Positions 19,982-31,626 of a stretch of 36,744 nt of DNA are shown in pieces; within the stretch, counting starts at the first letter, position 1; each line of letters starts with the position of its first letter. The notes beneath the pieces were generated by a model. That model saw only the letters and a list, made by a program, of their open reading frames with translations. It did not search any database and was not told the DNA's origin. The DNA is from Actinobacteria bacterium 13_1_20CM_4_69_9 (GTDB taxonomy: Bacteria; Actinomycetota; Thermoleophilia; Gaiellales; Gaiellaceae). Position numbers and translations under genes: made by a program. The stretch is taken from NCBI GenBank assembly GCA_001920085.1, contig MNJC01000071.1, positions 1 through 36,744 on the forward strand, written 5' to 3'.

Positions 19982-20914
19982 TCAGGCGTAAACGCCGAGG
20001 GAGCGAAACTTGGCTCGCCGCCTGCGCTTGAGGTCGTCCGCCGGCACCGATTCGAGCTCTTCGAGCGCTTCCTCCAGCGATTCCCCCAGCAGCTTGGCGG
20101 ACTGGTCCGGATCGGTGTGGGCGCCGCCCTCCGGCTCGGGCACAATGCCGTCGATCACGCCCAACTCGAGGCAGTGCACCGCGTCGGGCTTGAACGCCGC
20201 CGCCGCCTTCTTGGCCTCGGCCGCATCCCGCCAGAGAATCGCGGCGCAGCCCTCCGGCGAGATGACGGTGTAGATCGCGTTCTCCTGCATCAGCACCTTG
20301 TCGGCGAGCGCCGTGGCGATCGCCCCGCCCGACCCGCCTTCACCGATGACGCACGCCACCGTCGGCACGTCCAGCCTCGACATCAGCGCCTGCGCGCGCG
20401 CGATGGCGCCTCCCTGGCCGTGCTGCTCGGCGGCGACGCCCGGATACGCACCGGGAATGTCGACGAGGCTGACGAGCGGGAAGCGGTGGCGGTCCGCAAG
20501 CTCCATCAGGCGCATCGCCTTGCGGTAGCCCTCCGGGTACGCCATGCCGAAGTTGCGGTGCGTGCGCTCTTTGATGTCCCGGCCTTTCTGGTTCCCGAGC
20601 AGGGCGATCGTGCGACCGTTGAACTTGCCGAGCCCGACCACGAGCGCCGCGTCGTCGGCGCGGCCGCGATCACCGTGGAGCTCGACCCAGTCGTCGAGCA
20701 GCCGCTCGACGTAGTCGAGCGTGTACGGGCGATCCTGGTGCCGCGCGAGCTCGACGGAGCGCCAGATCTCCTCGTCCGTCGGCGCGGTCTGGATGCGGTC
20801 GAGCTGGCGCTGCAGCTTCTCTAGCTCGCCCGACAGGCGCACCCCGCCGAGCAGGTTGAGGCTGCGCAGCCGCGTCAGCCGGTCGCGGAGATGGAGCTCG
20901 TGGTCAGTCGCCAT
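19982..20914 (-). CDS. accA: Acetyl-CoA carboxylase carboxyltransferase subunit alpha
   Basis: RLTRLRSLNLLGGVRLSGELEKLQRQL...VELARHQDRPYTLDYVERLLDDWVELHGDRGRADDAALVVGLGKFNGRTIALLGNQKGRDIKERTHRNFGMAYPEGYRKAMRLMELADRHRFPLVSLVDIPGAYPGVAAEQHGQGGAIA. Confidence 0.96.
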   Translation of the reverse strand: MATDHELHLRDRLTRLRSLNLLGGVRLSGELEKLQRQLDRIQTAPTDEEIWRSVELARHQDRPYTLDYVERLLDDWVELHGDRGRADDAALVVGLGKFNGRTIALLGNQKGRDIKERTHRNFGMAYPEGYRKAMRLMELADRHRFPLVSLVDIPGAYPGVAAEQHGQGGAIARAQALMSRLDVPTVACVIGEGGSGGAIATALADKVLMQENAIYTVISPEGCAAILWRDAAEAKKAAAAFKPDAVHCLELGVIDGIVPEPEGGAHTDPDQSAKLLGESLEEALEELESVPADDLKRRRRAKFRSLGVYA

Positions 20915-21749
20915 TGCGCGCGAAGAGGCGAAGGAGCCGGGACACGTACGGCTTGAGCTCGGGTCGCGGGACGATCGCGTCGATGTGGCCGAAGCGAAGG
21001 TTCTGCTCCGCGAGCCCGAAGTCCTCGGGGAGCTTCTCGCGCGTCGTCTGCTGAACGACGCGCGGGCCGGTGAAGGCCACCAGGGCGCCGGGCTCCGCGA
21101 CGATCACGTCGCCGAGGCTCGCGAAGCTCGCGAGCACGCCGGCGGTCGTCGGATGCGTCATAACGCTGATCAGCGCCTGGCCGGCGTCGTGGAGGTCCTC
21201 GACGGCGCAGACGGTCTTCGGCAACTGCATCAGCGACAGGATCCCTTCCTGCATCCGCGCCCCGCCCGACGCCGTGACCGACACGAGCGGAACGCCGCGC
21301 TCGGCCGCGCTGTCGCAGGCGCGCGAGAACTTCTCGCCGACGACGCTCCCCATCGAGCCGCCCATGAAGGAGAAATCCATGACGGCGAGCTCGCAGGACG
21401 TCCCCTCGATCGAGGCGTGGCCGATCACCATCGCCTCGCCGAGCCCGGTCTTCATCTCCGCTTCCGCAAGGCGCTCGGTGTACGGGCGCAGGTCGAAGAA
21501 TTGCAGCGGGTCTTCGGAGCGCAGCTCGGCCGCCTCCTCGACGAACGTCCCCTGGTCCACGAGCGATGCGACTCGCGCGCGCGCGCGCATCGGGAAGTGG
21601 TGGCCGCAGTGCGGACAGACCCAGAGCGCCGCCTCGAGCTCGTCGTCCCGGTAGTGCGACTGGCACTCGGGGCACGTGTTCGGATGTTGTTTGCCCGGCG
21701 GCTCTGGGACGTTCCGGTGCTCGATGGAGACGTCGATCCGGGAAGACAT
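20904..21749 (-). CDS. accD: Acetyl-CoA carboxylase carboxyltransferase subunit beta
   Basis: CPECQSHYRDDELEAALWVCPHCGHHFPMRARARVASLVDQGTF...ASIEGTSCELAVMDFSFMGGSMGSVVGEKFSRA...VSVTASGGARMQEGILSLMQLPKT; zinc ribbon and AccD core. Confidence 0.96.
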   Translation of the reverse strand: MSSRIDVSIEHRNVPEPPGKQHPNTCPECQSHYRDDELEAALWVCPHCGHHFPMRARARVASLVDQGTFVEEAAELRSEDPLQFFDLRPYTERLAEAEMKTGLGEAMVIGHASIEGTSCELAVMDFSFMGGSMGSVVGEKFSRACDSAAERGVPLVSVTASGGARMQEGILSLMQLPKTVCAVEDLHDAGQALISVMTHPTTAGVLASFASLGDVIVAEPGALVAFTGPRVVQQTTREKLPEDFGLAEQNLRFGHIDAIVPRPELKPYVSRLLRLFARNGD

Positions 21750-21787
21750 GAACTGTCGAGTTTAGACTCGCCCCACCGCCGGCCCAG

Positions 21788-22564
21788 TTACAGCCCGAGG
21801 GCGGCGGCGAAGGCCGCGAGCGGCTCGATGTTCGACGGCTCGAAGGTCAGCCCTGTGAACCCGGCCCCGAGCACCTTCGTGCGGCCGGCCACGTCGCCGA
21901 GAATCCGCTCGATCTCGGCGCGGGAAGGGCCTCCGGGCTCCGGCATGAAGACCGACATCTCCGACGGCTCGAGCACGTCGACGTCGAGGGCCACGTACGT
22001 GCAGCCGACGCCGTCGAGCGCCTGCGCAACGCCCTCCTCGCCGATGTGAAGCCCGCTCGCACGGATGAACTCCTCCTCGGGCGGGTCGAGGTTCCGCGCA
22101 CCGACGAGCGCGACGTCGGAGGCCTCGACGGCGCCCGAGTCGAGCAGCATCCGGAGCGGCATTCCCCACTGGTTCCCGGACGGCGAGCTCTCCGGCGTGT
22201 TCAGGTCGCCGTGGGCGTCGAGCCAGACGAGAGCGATCCGTCCCTGGCGGGCTGAGAGCCCTTCGATCGCGCCGACGTGCGAGCAGCAGTCGCCGCCGAG
22301 CACGAGCGGTCGCTCGGGAAGGTCGGCGGCGAGCGCGAGGTTCTGCTCCTCGAGCGTCTCCGCCTCCACGATCCCGGCCTCCGGGAACGGCACCTCCAGC
22401 CACGCAGACTCGGCCATCGCCTCGCCGCCGTCGCCCCAGGCCTGCGGCACGCGCACCAGGCCCGAGTGGAAGACGCGGCCGCACGAATGGCACTCGTAGT
22501 CCGGACCGATGGCGACGGCCGTGTAGGTCTTGCACTCCGGGCACTTCGCGCGCAGCCGGCTCAT
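21788..22564 (-). CDS. Arginase/agmatinase-family protein with N-terminal zinc ribbon
   Basis: N-term CPECKTYTAVAIGPDYECHSC zinc ribbon; core VLGGDCCSHVGAIEGL...VWLDAHGDLNTPESSPSGNQWGMPLRML...YVALDVDVLEPSEMSVFMPEPGG...GFTGLTFEPSNIEPLAAF. Confidence 0.88.
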   Translation of the reverse strand: MSRLRAKCPECKTYTAVAIGPDYECHSCGRVFHSGLVRVPQAWGDGGEAMAESAWLEVPFPEAGIVEAETLEEQNLALAADLPERPLVLGGDCCSHVGAIEGLSARQGRIALVWLDAHGDLNTPESSPSGNQWGMPLRMLLDSGAVEASDVALVGARNLDPPEEEFIRASGLHIGEEGVAQALDGVGCTYVALDVDVLEPSEMSVFMPEPGGPSRAEIERILGDVAGRTKVLGAGFTGLTFEPSNIEPLAAFAAALGL

Positions 22565-23478
22565 CGCAGCTCCTTACCGTACGCGACCGCCTCGAAGGCG
22601 ACCTGCATGCCGGCGCGCTCGTACAACCGGGTCGCACCGGTGGGATTCTCGGCATCGACGCCGAGCGCCACACGCCGCTTCCCGCGGCGGTAGAACTCGC
22701 CGAACGCGTGCTGGAGGAGCGCGAGCGCGATCCCGCGCTTGCGCCACGGCTTGCGCACGCCGAGCGCCCCGACGAAGCCTGCGCCCGACCGGTCCGGCTC
22801 GTTGCGCATCACGGCGGCGATCTCTTCACCGTCGCGCACGACGAACCACAGCGTCGGATCGAAGTCGGGATCCTGCACGAGCCGTAGCTCGCGCCACTGG
22901 TCGAACGGCATCGCGACGAAGTTCCACTCATCCTCGAATGCCTCGATCAGCGCATCGTGGAACGCCCTCGCCTCCCCCGGCTCGAACGTCTCGAGCTTCA
23001 GCCCGTCGGGAAGCCGTGCGGGCAGCGGCGCTTCTTCCAGCTCGATCATCATCCGGTAATAGCGGCGCAGCTCGCGCATGCCGAATTGCTCGAAGAGACG
23101 ATGCGCGCGGTCGTCCGCGGCCAACGAGAACGTCTGGAGCTTCGGCTTTCGGAGCTCGCCGGCGCGATTCTCGCCTCGCGCAAGGAGCCAGGCGCCGAGC
23201 CCGCGACCCTGATGATCCGGGTGGACGAAGCCGTCGAGCTCGAAGTTGTCGCCGTGAGCGAAACCGGCGGCGTACGCGACGATCGATTCCTCGTCGTGCA
23301 GCACCCATGAGCTGTGCTCGAGGTCCATCAGCCGCCACCAGCCGAGCAACTCGGGTACCGACGACTCGGACCAGCCCTGCACCGCGACGTCGGCGGCGGT
23401 GATCAGCTCGTCGATCGCCGGCGCGTCGTCGACGGTCGCGCGGCGGGCTCCGAGGCCGTCAGGCGGGGGCGAGCTCAT
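22561..23478 (-). CDS. Tandem GNAT-domain acetyltransferase
   Basis: GLGARRATVDDAPAIDELITAADVAVQGW...ELDGFVHPDHQGRGLGAWLLARGENRAGE... and second half LETFEPGEARAFHDALIEAFEDEW...VGALGVRKPWRKRGIALALLQHAFGEFYRRGKRRVALGVDAENPTGATRLYERAGMQV. Confidence 0.88.
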   Translation of the reverse strand: MSSPPPDGLGARRATVDDAPAIDELITAADVAVQGWSESSVPELLGWWRLMDLEHSSWVLHDEESIVAYAAGFAHGDNFELDGFVHPDHQGRGLGAWLLARGENRAGELRKPKLQTFSLAADDRAHRLFEQFGMRELRRYYRMMIELEEAPLPARLPDGLKLETFEPGEARAFHDALIEAFEDEWNFVAMPFDQWRELRLVQDPDFDPTLWFVVRDGEEIAAVMRNEPDRSGAGFVGALGVRKPWRKRGIALALLQHAFGEFYRRGKRRVALGVDAENPTGATRLYERAGMQVAFEAVAYGKELR

Positions 23479-24088
23479 CCAGCGTGTCGGGCAGGCGCGA
23501 CAGGTCCGGCAGCTCGCGCGTCGGCGCAGGCTCTCCGCCCTCGCCGTACCGGTTGATCCAGACCGTGCGGAGGCCGAGCGCGGTCGCGGGCACGACGTCG
23601 TGGAAATGGCTCTGAGCCACGTGCACGTGCCGCTCGCGCGGAACGTCGATCCGTTGGAAGAAGTGCTCCCAGTGCTCGCTCGCCGGCTTGTACGAGCCGA
23701 TCTCGGACGCGACGATCGCGAGCTCGAAGGGCACGCCGATCCGCGCCATCGACGCGTCGATGAAGTCGCGATCGGTGTTCGAGAGGATCGCGAGCTTCCA
23801 CCCGCGCGACCGCGCGTCCTCGAGCGACGCACGGACCTCGGGGAAGGGCTCCCACGACGGCAGCAAGCGGGCGAGCCTTTCTCCGTCGTCGATGCCGAGC
23901 CTCCGAGCGGCCTCTGTCATGACGTCGCGGTACGAGCGGTCGGGATTCTCCGCCTGCACCTCTGGCTCGACCTCGTGATAACGCCCGAGCAGCTCGTCGC
24001 TCCCGAGCGCACGGCGAAGCCCGCCGTTCCAGTCGATCAGCGTGCCGTAGCAGTCGAATGTCGCCCAGCGGTCTTGTCCGGAGACCAC
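23459..24088 (-). CDS. HAD-superfamily hydrolase, haloacid dehalogenase type II-like
   Basis: WATFDCYGTLIDWNGGLRRAL...YHEVEPEVQAENPDRSYRDVMTEAARRLGI...ILSNTDRDFIDASMARIGVPFELAIVASEIGSYKPASEHWEHFF...HVAQSHFHDVVPATALGLRTVWINRYGE. Confidence 0.9.
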   Translation of the reverse strand: MVSGQDRWATFDCYGTLIDWNGGLRRALGSDELLGRYHEVEPEVQAENPDRSYRDVMTEAARRLGIDDGERLARLLPSWEPFPEVRASLEDARSRGWKLAILSNTDRDFIDASMARIGVPFELAIVASEIGSYKPASEHWEHFFQRIDVPRERHVHVAQSHFHDVVPATALGLRTVWINRYGEGGEPAPTRELPDLSRLPDTLDELAPA

Positions 24089-24097
24089 GGCCGCGAG

Positions 24098-25351
24098 CTA
24101 TTCGTCGAAACGCTTGAGGACGATCGACGCGTTGTGACCACCGAAGCCGAAAGAGTTGGACACGCCGACCCGCACGTCCGCGTCGCGCGACTCGTTCGGG
24201 ATGTAGTCGAGGTCGCACTCGGGGTCCGGCACCTCGTAGTTGATCGTCGGCGGGAGCTTCCCGTCGCGGATCGCGAGCGTCGTGAAGATCGCCTCGACCG
24301 CGCCGCCGGCACCGAGGCAGTGCCCCGTTGCGCCCTTGGTCGAGGAGATCGGCGTCTTGCCCGCCTTCTCCTCGCCGATCGCGAGCTTGATCACCCGCGT
24401 CTCGGCGGCATCGCCGAGGGGCGTCGACGTGCCGTGCGCGTTGATGTAGTCGATCTCCTCCGGCTCGATCCCCGCATCGCCGAACGCCATCTTCATTGCG
24501 CGCGCAGGATTGGTGCCGGTCGGGTCGGGCTCGGTCACGTGCTTCGCGTCGGACGACAGGCCGTAGCCTGCGAGCTCTGCGTAGACCTTCGCCCCGCGTG
24601 CGCGCGCATGCTCGAGCTCCTCGAGCACGACGACCGCGCCTGCCTCGCCCATGACGAAGCCGTCGCGACCGGCATCGAACGGCCGGCTCGCCCGCTTCGG
24701 GTCGTCGTTGCGTCGGGAAAGCGCACGCATCGCAGCGAAGCCCGCAATGCCGACCTGGTTGATCGCAGACTCGGTGCCGCCGCACAACATGACGTCGGCG
24801 CGACCGAGGCGGATGTCGTCGAGCCCTTGGCCGATCGCCATGTTCGACGCCGCACATGCTGTGCACTCCGACGACAACGGGCCGCGCGTGCCGAGCTCCA
24901 TCGAGACCCAGCCGGCGCCCATGTTCGGGATGATGCAGGGGATCGCGAACGGGTTGACGCGGTCGGGCCCGCGCTCCTTCAGCGTGTCGTAGCAGTCCTG
25001 GAACGACTTGATCCCGCCGATGCCCGTGGCGATCGAGGCGCCGATCCGGTCGGCCTCGGCCGCGATGTCGATGCCCGCGTCGGCCTCGGCCTGGCGCGCG
25101 GCGGCGAGGATCAGCTGCGCGAAACGGTCCATGCGCCTGGCCTGCTTGCGGTCGATGTACCGGGCGGGGTCGAAGTCCTTCACCTCGCAGGCGAAGTGGA
25201 CGAAGTAGTCGGACGAGTCGAACTGCGTGATCTCGGCGGCGCCGGACTCGCCGGCGAGCAAGTTCTTCCAGGTCGTCTCGACGTCGTTTCCGAGCGGGGT
25301 GACGGCACCCATGCCCGTGATCACGACTCTGCGCCGGCCGTTCTGTGACAT
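24098..25351 (-). CDS. fabF: 3-oxoacyl-ACP synthase II (KAS II)
   Basis: RRVVITGMGAVTPLGNDVETTWKNLLAGESG...STACAASNMAIGQ-type active site (ECTACAASNMAIGQGLDDIRLGRADVMLCGGTESAI)...INAHGTSTPLGDAAETRVIK...SSTKGATGHCLGAGGAVEAIF...NSFGFGGHNASIVLKR. Confidence 0.96.
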   Translation of the reverse strand: MSQNGRRRVVITGMGAVTPLGNDVETTWKNLLAGESGAAEITQFDSSDYFVHFACEVKDFDPARYIDRKQARRMDRFAQLILAAARQAEADAGIDIAAEADRIGASIATGIGGIKSFQDCYDTLKERGPDRVNPFAIPCIIPNMGAGWVSMELGTRGPLSSECTACAASNMAIGQGLDDIRLGRADVMLCGGTESAINQVGIAGFAAMRALSRRNDDPKRASRPFDAGRDGFVMGEAGAVVVLEELEHARARGAKVYAELAGYGLSSDAKHVTEPDPTGTNPARAMKMAFGDAGIEPEEIDYINAHGTSTPLGDAAETRVIKLAIGEEKAGKTPISSTKGATGHCLGAGGAVEAIFTTLAIRDGKLPPTINYEVPDPECDLDYIPNESRDADVRVGVSNSFGFGGHNASIVLKRFDE

Positions 25352-26082
25352 CACATCCCCAGTCCGCCGTCGACGAGCAGCACTTCACCGGTGATGAAGG
25401 CGGCCTCGTCGGAGGAGAGAAACCGTACCGCGCCGGCAACGTCCTGCGGCGTGCCGAAACGGCCGAGCGGCGTGTTGGCGAGCATGAGCTGTTTCATCTC
25501 GTCGGCGATCACCTCCGTCAGACGCGTGTCGACGTACCCGGGTGCGACGACGTTTGCACGCACGCCGCGATTGCCGAGCTCACGCGCGAGCGCCTTGGTG
25601 AAGCCGATGATGCCCGCCTTCGACGCGGAGTAGTTCGTCTGGCCAGGATTCCCGTGCAGGCCGACGATGCTGGAGATGTTCACGATCGAGCCGCTGCGGC
25701 GCTTCATCATCCCGCGCGCCGCCGCGCGGCAGGTGTGGAAGACACCGCCGAGGTTCGTCGCGATGACGTCGCTCCAGTCGTCGTCCGGCATGCGTGCGAG
25801 GAGCCCGTCGCGCGTGATCCCGGCGTTGTTGACGAGGATGTCGAGCTCGCCCGCTGCATCCACGAGCGCCTTGGCCTCGTCGGCGTCGGCAACGTCGGCA
25901 TGGACCGCCTTCGCACCCGCCTCCCGTGCGACGGCTTCGGCCTCGTCCTTGCCCGACCGGTAGCTCAGGGTCACGGTCGCACCCGCGCCTGCCAGCTCCA
26001 GCGCGATGGCGCGGCCGATCCCACGCGAGCCTCCCGTGACGAGGGCGGTCTTGCCCTCGAGCGACGCGAAGGGGTCAGGCAG
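25351..26082 (-). CDS. fabG: 3-oxoacyl-ACP reductase (candidate CTG start overlapping fabD stop)
   Basis: From CTG 26082: LPDPFASLEGKTALVTGGSRGIGRAIALELAGAGATVTLSYRSGKDEAEA...ILVNNAGITRDGLLARMPDDDWSDVIATNLGGVFHTCRAAARGMMKRRSGSIVNISSIVGLHGNPGQTNYSASKAGIIGFTKALARELGNRGVRANVVAPGYVDT. ORF track start (25974) would delete the TGGSRGIG motif. Confidence 0.94.
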   Translation of the reverse strand: MPDPFASLEGKTALVTGGSRGIGRAIALELAGAGATVTLSYRSGKDEAEAVAREAGAKAVHADVADADEAKALVDAAGELDILVNNAGITRDGLLARMPDDDWSDVIATNLGGVFHTCRAAARGMMKRRSGSIVNISSIVGLHGNPGQTNYSASKAGIIGFTKALARELGNRGVRANVVAPGYVDTRLTEVIADEMKQLMLANTPLGRFGTPQDVAGAVRFLSSDEAAFITGEVLLVDGGLGM

Positions 26083-27004
26083 AGGCGAGTGTCTCCTCGA
26101 GCTTGTCGAGTGCGTCCGGGGTCGAGACCGAGATCGTCTTCACGTCCCGGTCGATGCGCTTGACCAGCCCCGAGAGCACGTTGCCGGGCCCAACTTCGAC
26201 GAATGTGTGCGCGCCCTCGCGGAGCAGAGCCTGCGCGGCCTGGGTGAAGCGCACCGGTGCGGTCAGCTGCTCGACGAGCAGCGGCCCCATCCGCTTCGCG
26301 TCCTCGACCCGCGCCGTGACGGTCGACATGAAGGGGGCCGTCGGCTCAGAAAACTTCACCCGCTCGAGCGCGGGCCGCAGCCGGTCGGCGGCGCGCGCCA
26401 CCAACGGGCTGTGGAACGCCCCGGAGACTCGGAGCTTGACGGCGCGCCGCGCTCCTTCCTGCTCGGCGAGCTGGCATGCCTCGTCGACCGCCGGGTTCTC
26501 GCCCGAGACGACGATCTGGCCCGGACAGTTGTAGTTCGCCGGCCACACGTTGAGGATGCGCCGGCAGATCCGCTCCACGACCTCGTCGTCGAGACCGAGG
26601 ATCGCCGCCATCGACCCGGGGTTCCGCTTCGCCGCATCGGCCATCGCGAGGCCGCGTTCGCGCACGAGGCCGATTGCCTCCTCGACCTTCAGCGCACCGG
26701 CCGACGCGAGCGCCGCGAACTCGCCCACCGAGTGGCCCACAACGAAGTCGGGCTTGATTCCCCGCGCACGGATCGCGGCCAGGACCGCGAGGCTCGTGGC
26801 GACGAGCGCCGGCTGCTGCACCTCGGTCTGGACGAGCTCGTCCTCGGGCCCCTCGAAGCAGAGGTGCACGAGGTCGAGGCCCGAAGCCTCGCTGCCGCGC
26901 GTGAATACATCCATCGCCTCCGGGACCGCCTCCGCGATCTCGCGCCCCATGCCCACCTCGAGCGAGCCCTGGCCCGGGAAGCAGAAAGCGACGCCGCCCT
27001 TCAC
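26075..27004 (-). CDS. fabD: Malonyl-CoA:ACP transacylase
   Basis: GTG start (GTGA overlap with fabH); VKGGVAFCFPGQGSLEVGMGREIAE...VVGHSVGEFAALASAGALKVEEAIGLVRERGLAM...GAFHSPLVARAADRLRPALE...VEVGPGNVLSGLVKRID. Confidence 0.95.
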   Translation of the reverse strand: MKGGVAFCFPGQGSLEVGMGREIAEAVPEAMDVFTRGSEASGLDLVHLCFEGPEDELVQTEVQQPALVATSLAVLAAIRARGIKPDFVVGHSVGEFAALASAGALKVEEAIGLVRERGLAMADAAKRNPGSMAAILGLDDEVVERICRRILNVWPANYNCPGQIVVSGENPAVDEACQLAEQEGARRAVKLRVSGAFHSPLVARAADRLRPALERVKFSEPTAPFMSTVTARVEDAKRMGPLLVEQLTAPVRFTQAAQALLREGAHTFVEVGPGNVLSGLVKRIDRDVKTISVSTPDALDKLEETLASA

Positions 27005-27990
27005 AGAGTCCACTTCATGAGGCCGGATCCCCACGTGAGGCCCGCTCCCATGCCCGTCATCAACACCAGATCTCCCTTCTTCAACCGCCCGTCCCGTTGC
27101 GCCTCCGCGAGCGCCAGCGGGATTGAACCAGACGACGTGTTCCCATAACGGTCAACATTCACAACCATCCGCTCCCGCGGGATCCCGAGCTTCTGGGCCG
27201 CGTGATCCATGATCCGCACGTTCGCCTGGTGCGGAACGTAGACGTCCACCTCGTCGACCGACACCCCGCAGCAGTCGAGAACTGCCTCTGCGGACGACAC
27301 GAGTACCCGCGTCGCGAACCTGAACACCTCACGACCGTTCATGTGGACATAGCCGTTCCCGGTCGCGTCCTCGATACGGCGCGAGCCGCTGCCGGGCAGC
27401 GAGAGGTGGATCCCGCCCCCGCCGTCGGCGCCGAGCTCGAAGCCGAGGAAGCCTCGCTGCGGCGTCCGCTCGAGCACGACGGCGCCGGCTCCATCGCCGA
27501 AGAGGACCAGCGTCGAGCGGTCGGTCCAGTCGAGGATGCGCGAGAGGACGTCGCCGCCCACGACGAGCGCGCGTTCCGCGAGGCCCGCCGCCATCATCCC
27601 GTACGCCTGCGCGAGCGCGTACATGAAGCCCGTGCAGCCGGCGAGCAGGTCGTACGCCCCGGCGTCCGGCGCGCCGAGCACGTCGGCGAGCAGCGCGCTC
27701 GAGGTCGGGAACATCATGTCCGGCGTCACGGTCGCGCAGACGAGCAGGTCGACGTCCCTGGCCTCCACCCCGGCCTGCGCGAGCGCGGCTCGGGCCGCGG
27801 GAAGCGCGAGATCCGTGAGCGCCTCCTCGGGCGCGGCGATGCGCCGCTCCTTGATGCCGGTGCGCTCGGTGATCCACTCGTCCGTCGTGTCGACGAGCGT
27901 GGAGAGCTCCTCGTTCGTCAGCACGCGCTTCGGTGCATACGCGCCGAGGCCTGTGATGGAGATGGGGTCGCCCTGCGCCTTGCCGAGCAT
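27001..27990 (-). CDS. fabH: 3-oxoacyl-ACP synthase III (KAS III)
   Basis: ITGLGAYAPKRVLTNEELSTLVDTTDEWITERTGIKERRIAAPEE...DLLAGCTGFMYALAQAYGMMAAGLAERALVVGGDVLSRILDWTDRSTLVLFGDGAGAVVLE...VPHQANVRIMDHAAQKLGIP...NTSSGSIPLALAEA. Confidence 0.96.
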   Translation of the reverse strand: MLGKAQGDPISITGLGAYAPKRVLTNEELSTLVDTTDEWITERTGIKERRIAAPEEALTDLALPAARAALAQAGVEARDVDLLVCATVTPDMMFPTSSALLADVLGAPDAGAYDLLAGCTGFMYALAQAYGMMAAGLAERALVVGGDVLSRILDWTDRSTLVLFGDGAGAVVLERTPQRGFLGFELGADGGGGIHLSLPGSGSRRIEDATGNGYVHMNGREVFRFATRVLVSSAEAVLDCCGVSVDEVDVYVPHQANVRIMDHAAQKLGIPRERMVVNVDRYGNTSSGSIPLALAEAQRDGRLKKGDLVLMTGMGAGLTWGSGLMKWTL

Positions 27991-28409
27991 CAGCGCTCCA
28001 CCGCAAAGGTCAGCGTCGCCTTGCACGCGAGCTCCCCGTCGACGCGCGCCTCGGCCTTGCCGCGACCGATCGGGCCCCGCACACGGTCGAGCTCGCAGCG
28101 CAGCTCGAGCACGTCACCCGGCTCGACGATCCGCTTGAAGCGGCACTCGTCGATGCCGGCGAAGAACGCGAGCTTCCCGCGATTCTCCTCCTCGCTCAGC
28201 ACCGCGACTGCGCCCGTCTGCGCGAGCGCCTCGACGATCAGGACACCCGGCATGATCGGCCGCCCGGGAAAGTGCCCCTGCAAGTACCACTCGTCTGGAC
28301 GCACCGTCTTTCGCGCCACGGCGCCGACCCCCGGCGTGACTTCCAGCACCTCGTCGATCAGCAGGAACGGCTCGCGATGCGGGAGGATCTGCTCGATCGC
28401 GACCGTCAT
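27990..28409 (-). CDS. fabZ: 3-hydroxyacyl-ACP dehydratase FabZ
   Basis: [103 protein letters not shown] overlap with upstream sigma gene. Confidence 0.95.
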
Positions 28410-29014
28410 CCGACGTCGGAAAGCTTGTCGCGCAACCGGTTCCGGCCGCGATGCGCATAGCACTTCGCGGTGCCGACGGGCATGTCGGAAACCGCCGCGA
28501 TCTCCTCGAAGGACAGCCCGAGCGCGTCCTTGAGCACGACGACCCGTGCCTGGTCCGGCGCGATCTCGGCGAGGCAGCGGCTCAACTCGCTGCGCAGCTC
28601 GCTGCGGTCCGCCTCGTGGACGGGATCGGCGTCGGTCGCCGCGCGGCGATCCTCGAGCAGCGGCTCGCAGGCCCGGGCACGCTGGCGGTTCGCGACGTCG
28701 CGGCACGCGTTGATCGTGAGCCGGTGCAGCCACGTCGCGAACTGAGCCTCGCCCCGGAACTGCCCGATTCGCGTGCAGAGCTTCGCGAGCGCCTCCTGGG
28801 CGGCGTCGCGCGCATCCTCCGGATCGCGCAGGATGTGGAACGCGACCTTGTCCACGCGCGCGGCGTGCCGTTCGCACAGCACCTCGAGCGCGCGCGTGTC
28901 GCCGTCTTTTGCCCTTTTGACCAGGATCGGATCGCTCAGCCGTGCATAGACCAGTGGCCCTTCGGGTCGGAAGGACTGCTGAATTGGACGGCGGCGGCTT
29001 CGCGGCAGTTGCAT
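28406..29014 (-). CDS. ECF-type RNA polymerase sigma factor, first gene of the FAS-II operon
   Basis: [87 protein letters not shown]...[51 protein letters not shown]. Confidence 0.92.
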
Positions 29015-29036
29015 CTCGCGGTTCTAGTCTAGGAGG
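29015..29036. promoter_or_regulatory. Compact bidirectional promoter between ECF sigma/fab operon (-) and birA (+) with overlapping -10 elements
   Basis: 22-bp spacer contains ctagtctag (odd palindrome): plus TAGTCT-N6-GTG (29025-29030) and minus TAGACT-N11-ATG (29031-29026). Confidence 0.58.
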
Positions 29037-29630
29037 GTGGCGGATTCGCTCGCCCCGGACGTCGTGCGGCCGCTGCTGAGCGGCCGCTTCGGACACGTCT
29101 ACCGGTACGAGGAGCTCCTGGAGTCGACCCAGCGGCTCCTTCGGCCGGACGACCCGGAGGGGGCGGTCGCCGTCGCCGAGGAGCAGAGCGAGGGTCGTGG
29201 GCGCCTCGACCGCAGGTGGCATGCACCCGCGAGAACGAGCGTGCTCGTCTCGATGCTGCTGCGACCGGCTGTCGAGTCCCCGCGCCTGCCCGAGCTGTCC
29301 CTGGTGACGGGCGGCGCCGTCGCCGAGGCGATCGCAGAGGTGACGGGGCTCGAGCCTGCGATCAAGTTCCCGAACGACGTCTTGCTCGGCGGGAAGAAGG
29401 TGGCGGGGATCCTGGCCGAGTCGAGCGAGGGCCGTGTCGTGCTCGGGATCGGCGTCAACGCGAACCAGACTGCCGACCAGCTCCCCACCGACGCCCAGAC
29501 CGAGCCCACGTCCCTTCGGCTCGAGCTCGGCGAGCCCGTGGACCGCGCCGAGTTGCTGGCCGCGATCCTGCGCCACGTCGAGCGCGCCTACGACGCCTGG
29601 ATCGTTACGGGAACTTCAGCGTCCGGCTGA
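29037..29630 (+). CDS. birA: Biotin--[acetyl-CoA-carboxylase] ligase, short form
   Basis: [56 protein letters not shown]...[58 protein letters not shown]; ends shortly after catalytic core. Confidence 0.92.
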
Positions 29631-31626
29631 GATTGCCGGCTGAGTCGCGGGCAACGATGCGCACGGAGCGCACGCGACCATGGGCGTAGGAGAACGTCCC
29701 TGCGCGGACGGAGCGCACGACGCGCGCGCCGTTCACGATCAGAGTGACCTTCGCCGGCTCACTGACCCAGAAACGCAGTGCGCGAAACGACCTGGCGCGC
29801 AGCGCGGGCGGCGTCGTGTCGATGCGGAACAGCACGGTTCGTGTGGCGCTGCCCACCTCGCCGCTCGTCGTCAGCGCACCGGCGTACGTGCCGTCGTTCG
29901 TGCCCGCCGCGCTCCAGCCGACGCTCTGCTGCCCAGGCGGGAGCGTCGCCGAGAAGACGGGAGCGACGGTCTTGCCGGCACGCTGGACGTCGAGCTTCAC
30001 CGCGGCGACCCGCAACACCTCGAACGAGAACGTCACGTCGCCGTTCGTGACGGCGGGCGCGACGGCGAACCGCGTCACCGTCCGGTCGATCACGACGGGG
30101 ACGCTGGCGGACACACTCGTCTTGGCGTTCGCGGCGGTGAGGACGAGCTGAAAGTGACCTTCGGGGATGTTCGTGGCAGTGAGCTTGAACGCCTGCTTCC
30201 CCGGCTGGTGCCGCTGAGTGAAGAGCGTGGCGACATCGACGCCACCGGCGTCGCGAAGCGTGGCGGTCACCGTCGCAGCCGCGGTGAGCGTGTAGGAGAT
30301 CTGCGTCGAGTCGTCGATCGTGCGCGGCGTCGCCGTCAGCGACTTGATCGCCAACCGAGCCGCCGCCGACCCGATCACACCGGTCGCCGGCCGCACGTTT
30401 CCGGCGGAGATCGTCCACGTGTAGGAGCCCTGCGGCGCGACCGACGCGTCCCATGTCCAGTCGATCACGCTGCTCGTCCCGGTCCCGCTCGCCACGACCG
30501 CGCCGCCGGCATCGGTGACGCTCACAGTCCACGGCAACGTCGTCGACAGCCGTCCCTGAAAGCGGATCAGCCCGCCGAGCTGCCCTTGCACGGCCGGCGC
30601 GTACAGCTTCGGCAGCCCGGTCGTCGCGGCCTGTCGCGCCAGTGCGCCTAGCTGTGCATACAGCACTGCGCCGGGACAGGTCGTGAAACCGGTGTCGCGG
30701 TGACCCGAGACGGCGCGCAAGAAGACCGGCGTGCCGACGGGGAAGCGCGCATTCCCGCCCGAGTCGAATGTCAACGTCGAGAGCGGGTCGACATGCGAGA
30801 GGTCGAGCCGCCACGCCAGCAGGTTGACGAGTGCCGCCTTCTCCGCGGCCGTCGGCGCAGTCGTCTGGTAGGTCCCGATCAGCGCGACCCCGACGGAGCC
30901 GGTGTTGAAGCCCTCCGCGTGGGCACCGATCACGTTCTTGTCGACGCCGCCGTAGCGGCCCTCGAAGACCTGGCCGTACTTGTCGACGAGAAAGTTGTAG
31001 CCGATGTCGTTCCAGCCGTTGCCCTTGACGTGGTACACCTCGATCCCGCGCACGATCGCCGCGGACTGCGCGGCGGTGTACGAGTTCGAGCCGGCGGTGT
31101 GGTGCACGATGGCAAGCTGCACGGTGCGGGCGTAGCTCGGCGCGGCACGGCGGATCGATTCGTTCGCACTCCACGCCGCGCGCGAGATCAGCGGCGGCGA
31201 GCCGGTCATGGAGATGCGGCGCAGCGGGATGCGCTCCTCGGAGCTCGCGACGAAATAGGCGCGCAGGCGCGTGACCCGGCCGTGCAAGCGGTACGCGATC
31301 CGGTCCGACGAGCCGACCCAGTACGGGTTGCCGAGCCGCCAGCCGTGCGCGGCCCGCCCCTCCGCCGTTTCGACGTTCGGCAGATCCTCCGCCTCCGGCG
31401 CCGCGCGTTGCCAGCCAGTCCAGCCACGGGTCAGTGAGCGCGTGCGGAAATCGACCGTGCCGGGGCCGCGCCAGTGCAGGCCGACCATGTCGAAGCGCGC
31501 GGGCGGCGCCGCCGCGAGCGTGCGCTCTCCGTGGAGCGGCACCTCGCGCATCGTGATCGACGCCTCGCCGAATGCAGCAGCGGGCGCAGCGAAAAACATG
31601 GCGACGGCGACCAGAGCCAACTTCAC
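29605..31626 (-). CDS. Secreted N-acetylmuramoyl-L-alanine amidase (PGRP domain) with C-terminal Ig-like/FlgD-like repeats
   Basis: Signal peptide [127 protein letters not shown]...[14 protein letters not shown]. Confidence 0.92.

Follow-up and report, generated by a model that had tools for sequence, protein, structure and literature searches.

Bidirectional promoters of bacteria reportedly arise from symmetry of the -10 element, as set out by Warman et al. in Nature Microbiology in 2021. The divergent transcription start sites (TSSs) of such promoters lie 18 bp apart, or alternatively 10 or 23 bp, and the 18-bp class, in which -7T and -11A are reciprocally paired, is their commonest form; a -18T with the initiating A on the other strand is frequent without being obligatory (PMC10268837, PMC12825309). 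At five bidirectional promoters of E. coli, basal activity is too low for competition, which appears only on activation of one direction (PMC12825309). In Actinobacteria, the accumulation of TANNNT before start codons is the signature used to infer leaderless genes (PMC3160421). In the titles and abstract openings of open-access articles, no combination of bidirectional promoters with leaderless genes is described. Biotin or fatty-acid genes are also linked at the level of transcription by the BirA repressor, FapR and FasR.

The Gaiellales are a little-studied group of soil actinobacteria. The window analysed here, meaning the whole 36,744-nt stretch of contig MNJC01000071.1 from Actinobacteria bacterium 13_1_20CM_4_69_9, carries birA facing an operon that begins with an ECF-type sigma factor gene and continues through the fab genes (Table 1). 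The spacer CTCGCGGTTCTAGTCTAGGAGG, at 29015-29036, is bounded by the sigma ATG, read as CAT at 29012-29014 (minus strand), and by the birA GTG at 29037-29039 (plus strand). This spacer is very probably one bidirectional promoter core serving both birA and sigma-fabZHDGF, leaderless or nearly so on either side. The earlier note had placed 22 bp between birA (+) and the sigma-fabZHDGF operon (-), which the coordinates bear out, and its reading of the element as TAGTCT-N6-GTG for birA and TAGACT-N11-ATG for the sigma gene is confirmed in both hexamers and both distances.

Table 1. Coordinates of the shared element and of the genes on either side of it in the window
Feature	Position	Strand	Basis or remark
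Symmetric core TAGTCTA (TANNNTA)	29025-29031		Two overlapping -10 hexamers, 1-bp offset; conservation in homologous spacers
Predicted birA -10, TAGTCT	29025-29030	+	N6 to GTG; predicted TSS 29037, leaderless
Predicted sigma/fab -10, TAGACT	29026-29031	-	N11 to ATG; predicted TSS near 29019, leader ~5 nt
birA, biotin-protein ligase, 197 aa	29037-29630	+	TIGR00121 (above cut-off), PF03099
ECF-type sigma factor, first gene of fab operon	28406-29014	-	PF04542, PF08281, TIGR02937 (Sigma70_r2/r4_2)
fabZ, overlapping the end of the sigma gene	27990-28409	-	NF000582, PF07977
fabH	27001-27990	-	TIGR00747, NF006829
fabD	26075-27004	-	TIGR00128
fabG	25351-26109	-	TIGR01830; coordinates are the searched interval, start approximate
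fabF	24098-25354	-	TIGR03150

Within the spacer, CTAGTCTAG occupies 29024-29032. Since the two hexamers of its core are offset by 1 bp, -11A/-7T of one strand stand opposite -7T/-11A of the other, and the overlapping -10s with their reciprocal pairing at 29025-29031 give the symmetry of the Warman/Grainger type. With 6-nt discriminators, the predicted TSSs fall at 29037 (+) and 29019 (-), an 18-bp distance that follows from geometry only. The locus resembles the Warman/Grainger promoters in its -10 TANNNT on both strands, its 18-bp register, its reciprocal -7T/-11A and its divergent mRNA pair, with TSSs that are here predicted. Unlike those promoters, it has each predicted TSS at a start codon or only a few bases from one, and its arrangement has been kept throughout an order. 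The -18T/initiating A pairing of E. coli bidirectional promoters is also missing at the window's predicted TSSs, where 29019 is C and 29037 is C on the minus strand.

The likeness to leaderless promoters of Actinobacteria (PMC3160421; Cortes et al. 2013, PMC3898074) lies in TANNNT about 12 bp upstream of the start, in an uninformative middle triplet and in an unneeded Shine-Dalgarno sequence; those promoters were described for single genes, whereas the birA/fab element would serve two divergent ones. On the birA side, TAGTCT-N6-GTG places the hexamer at this distance of about 12 bp. The sigma/fab side of the window, at N11, falls outside the leaderless N6-N9 range of the lineage, which predicts a leader of about five bases. 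What the locus adds to the known type is this apparent leaderless or near-leaderless geometry on both sides, together with order-wide conservation. When 28400-29700 was scanned for sigma-70 promoters, no pair of -35 and -10 was detected. Two further candidate signals were discarded: AGGAGG at 29031-29036 as a Shine-Dalgarno sequence for birA, with 0-nt spacing to the GTG and missing in most relatives, and GGTTGCAY as a birA -35, because it is the beginning of the sigma coding sequence and lies about 10 bp from the -10.

The birA product of the window lacks both the N-terminal HTH domain and the C-terminal domain, as judged by domain search, alignment and the lengths of its relatives. Proteins of about 170-204 aa are found in many Gaiellaceae of the window's clade, and others of the order have 238-257 aa with a C-terminal domain; the catalytic motifs of the short form are intact. 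At its 3' end, birA overlaps a convergent amidase gene (29605-31626) by 26 bp in the window. On the other side, 60 of 61 sigma loci have fabZ as the neighbour of the sigma gene and in the same orientation, and the minus-strand genes of the window are tightly spaced from sigma through fabF to accD and accA at 19982, which makes one long operon including the carboxyltransferase subunits of acetyl-CoA carboxylase plausible. The fab direction of the promoter may also drive accD and accA, which encode these subunits. Both lie downstream of fabF, likewise on the minus strand; three other genes intervene, and neighbouring genes overlap or are separated by small gaps (19982-28409). By position, acpP lies neither between fabG and fabF nor elsewhere in the fab cluster (24098-28409).

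Homologues of birA and of the sigma gene were gathered across the order, and spacers were extracted between the aligned coding parts. At 80 loci birA is divergent from the sigma gene or from fabZ; many come from incomplete metagenome assemblies, with predicted start codons. The earlier note had named conservation of the spacer in relatives as a check on its proposal, and such conservation is found: TANNNTA occurs in the spacer of 75 of the 80 divergent loci, where dinucleotide shuffling of these spacers would give 4.6, the loci sharing ancestry and therefore not being 80 independent events. Counted by genus, the motif is present in 27 of 29, where 1.4 would be expected, over three families (f1-f3). 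Upstream of birA genes with a different neighbour, TANNNTA is absent from the 60 bp in 25/25 loci (Fisher p = 1.5e-19). Seven loci read from another order of the class (f6) have a birA with an N-terminal HTH and no fabZ neighbour. As a word, CTAGTCTAG occurs three times in the 1.86-Mb assembly, with about four expected from composition and no enrichment; the support against chance lies in conservation of the site rather than in word frequency.

Where birA and fabZ are direct divergent neighbours, with the sigma gene missing from between them, 18 of 19 loci still have the element, which makes the operon's own ECF sigma factor an unlikely reader. Such a reader would autoregulate the operon together with birA, a proposal suggested by the position of the sigma gene directly downstream of the element and by the frequent autoregulation of ECF sigma factors. 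Promoters of this class usually require a -35, but with the loci stacked on TANNNTA no conserved -35 is seen on either strand; moreover, the same type of -10 precedes many unrelated genes. Reading by the ECF factor is judged very unlikely.

The pattern of conserved columns bears on another proposal, that CTAGTCTAG is a palindromic operator through which a transcription factor co-regulates birA and fab, in the logic of FapR or FasR, rather than a promoter core. The sequence is nearly palindromic and lies between two genes of related pathways. Stacking on TANNNTA renders the four TA positions constant by construction; no column outside the core approaches their conservation, the flanks are near background, and the outer C/G of CTAGTCTAG vary. 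The middle triplet takes ten forms (TAGTCTA 34, TAGTGTA 16, TACTCTA 7, TATCGTA 7 and six others), a variability that fits two TAnnnT-type -10s better than one operator sequence. The operator reading of the core was rejected on this column conservation, only TA-N3-TA being kept. Further points against it are the distances to both start codons, which fit -10 spacing, the unenriched word, the doubled copies of one relative (L058, below), which lose opposite halves, and the missing HTH domain of the window's BirA. In contrast to control by the BirA repressor, FapR or FasR, the locus combines a BirA that has no repressor domain with a spacer in which operator-like conservation was not found. An operator at this site is considered extremely improbable.

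Under the preferred reading of two overlapping -10s, the distances to both start codons are informative. The birA start lies at N6-N9 in 50 of the 75 loci, and 12 more show a birA start codon at N2, in most cases followed in frame by another at N8 or close to it. Towards the sigma gene or fabZ, the distance is N6-N12 in 66/75 loci, with a mode of N9; N10-N11 prevails in most of the window's genus and N6-N9 in most other genera. Comparison among relatives brings out an element that is conserved, that depends on the divergent arrangement, and that keeps a constrained distance to both start codons.

The two strands are nevertheless not identical in the strictness of their conservation, which raises the proposal that the element is used in the fab direction only, birA being driven from a promoter inside the sigma gene and the second half being incidental. 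The fab-strand TANNNT is present in 80/80 loci and the symmetry-giving A in 75; full symmetry is missing in five, three of which (L018, L048, L052) lose the birA-strand -12T only. On the birA strand, the core mostly has T at its centre; this brings the fab hexamer TAGACT one base nearer TATAAT than the birA hexamer, and the fab direction may be somewhat stronger. Ordinary leaderless promoters of the lineage were surveyed in 400 kb of one genome (G027) plus contigs of the genus, with a home-made gene caller whose starts are imprecise. There, TANNNT is concentrated at -12 to -15 of start codons and occurs almost nowhere else. The base that follows it is A in only 4 of 65 sites before genes with a same-direction upstream neighbour, against 75 of 80 birA spacers (p = 1e-29); the symmetry thus tracks the divergent pair and is not a by-product of the lineage's -10.

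Natural variants of the locus bear on the same proposal. In f3 genomes, which belong to the loci lacking the sigma gene, birA keeps TATCGT-N6-GTG with fabZ about 47 bp away. The L058 spacer, CCAGTCTAATCCGGGCGCTCTAGTCTGATCGTGCATG, contains an apparently doubled element, in which the CAGTCTA copy by sigma keeps TAGACT (-) only and the TAGTCTG copy by birA keeps TAGTCT (+) only. In L086, where birA is about 100 bp away, the old element CAGTCTA keeps the sigma half only, and TATGTT precedes birA. Both states presumably arose by duplication or separation. In L022, L088 and L098, birA lies 60-200 bp away, yet the symmetric form is still present, which would need inertia or leadered birA transcription as an explanation. 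These distant birA genes, with the occasional loss of the birA-strand T, agree with use in the fab direction only; the rarity of the A at ordinary promoters, the N6-N9 position of the birA start in most loci, the f3 arrangement, and the TANNNT that birA has of its own once separated (L058, L086) speak against it, and one-way use appears quite unlikely.

The sharing of one -10 element by birA and the fab operon is well supported by these comparisons. RNA polymerase with the housekeeping sigma factor would bind TAGTCTA in either orientation, as TANNNT on both strands in the 18-bp register suggests. In one orientation, birA transcription would start at or beside the GTG and yield a leaderless mRNA; in the other, transcription of sigma-fabZHDGF would start a few bases before the ATG. 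Two-way transcription, housekeeping-sigma reading and the leaderless birA mRNA are thus predictions from sequence. The earlier note held that the two genes "compete for, or share" the element: sharing is upheld by the 75/80 loci, whereas competition between the two orientations is unproven, the tested E. coli promoters competing only on activation.

Similar spacers occur between other divergent pairs. Across 41 genomes, the pattern CAY-N5-TANNNTA-N5-RTG, with N6 on both sides, has 66 matches and its reversed form 23; the N9/N6 form (CAY-N8-TANNNTA-N5-RTG) has 76 on both strands, compared with 19. The window's assembly holds four N9/N6 matches (L227-L230), each between two open divergent frames, and three of them look like real genes on both sides by sequence. 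Going by names read from the sequence, the first pair presumably sets a 225-aa frame against a rhomboid-like one, the second what we take to be murA-like and HD-domain-like frames, and the third presumed aldehyde dehydrogenase-like and thiolase-like frames; in L228, a frame assumed to be phosphopentomutase-like faces one of 37 aa. Strings like these spacers recur in relatives of the genus. Elsewhere (L148:1917-1939, G003:C109), a 17-bp spacer CGCCGTATCGTAGGCGG with TATCGTA has N6 to both start codons, a two-sided leaderless geometry.

The earlier note had likened the birA element to the spacer between polX and GT. This spacer, GCGTTGAATATACGTCC, lies at 1575-1591 (1572-1594 with the start codons). 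The likeness stands for the register, the 18-bp geometry and the polX side, where TATATT-N6-ATG is a good leaderless -10; it fails on the GT strand, where GAATAT-N6-GTG has no -12T, a loss that the window shares with one relative. The same register is seen in G003. It is conceivable, if doubtful, that minimal bidirectional promoters, leaderless on both sides, are standard for divergent pairs in Gaiellales, and that the single-site geometry of birA/fab is kept as the orientation choice of RNA polymerase ties biotin-ligase to fatty-acid-synthase output.

The birA/fab element appears to be a well-conserved example of a kind of promoter described only recently, with no new mechanism. It gives a bidirectional promoter an order-wide evolutionary record, which allows selection for symmetry to be told apart from selection for one -10 alone: the symmetry is present when the genes face each other, gone upstream of birA otherwise, and split where the element appears doubled. 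One site would join the enzyme that biotinylates acetyl-CoA carboxylase and the FAS-II operon, which predicts their co-expression or a trade-off between them.
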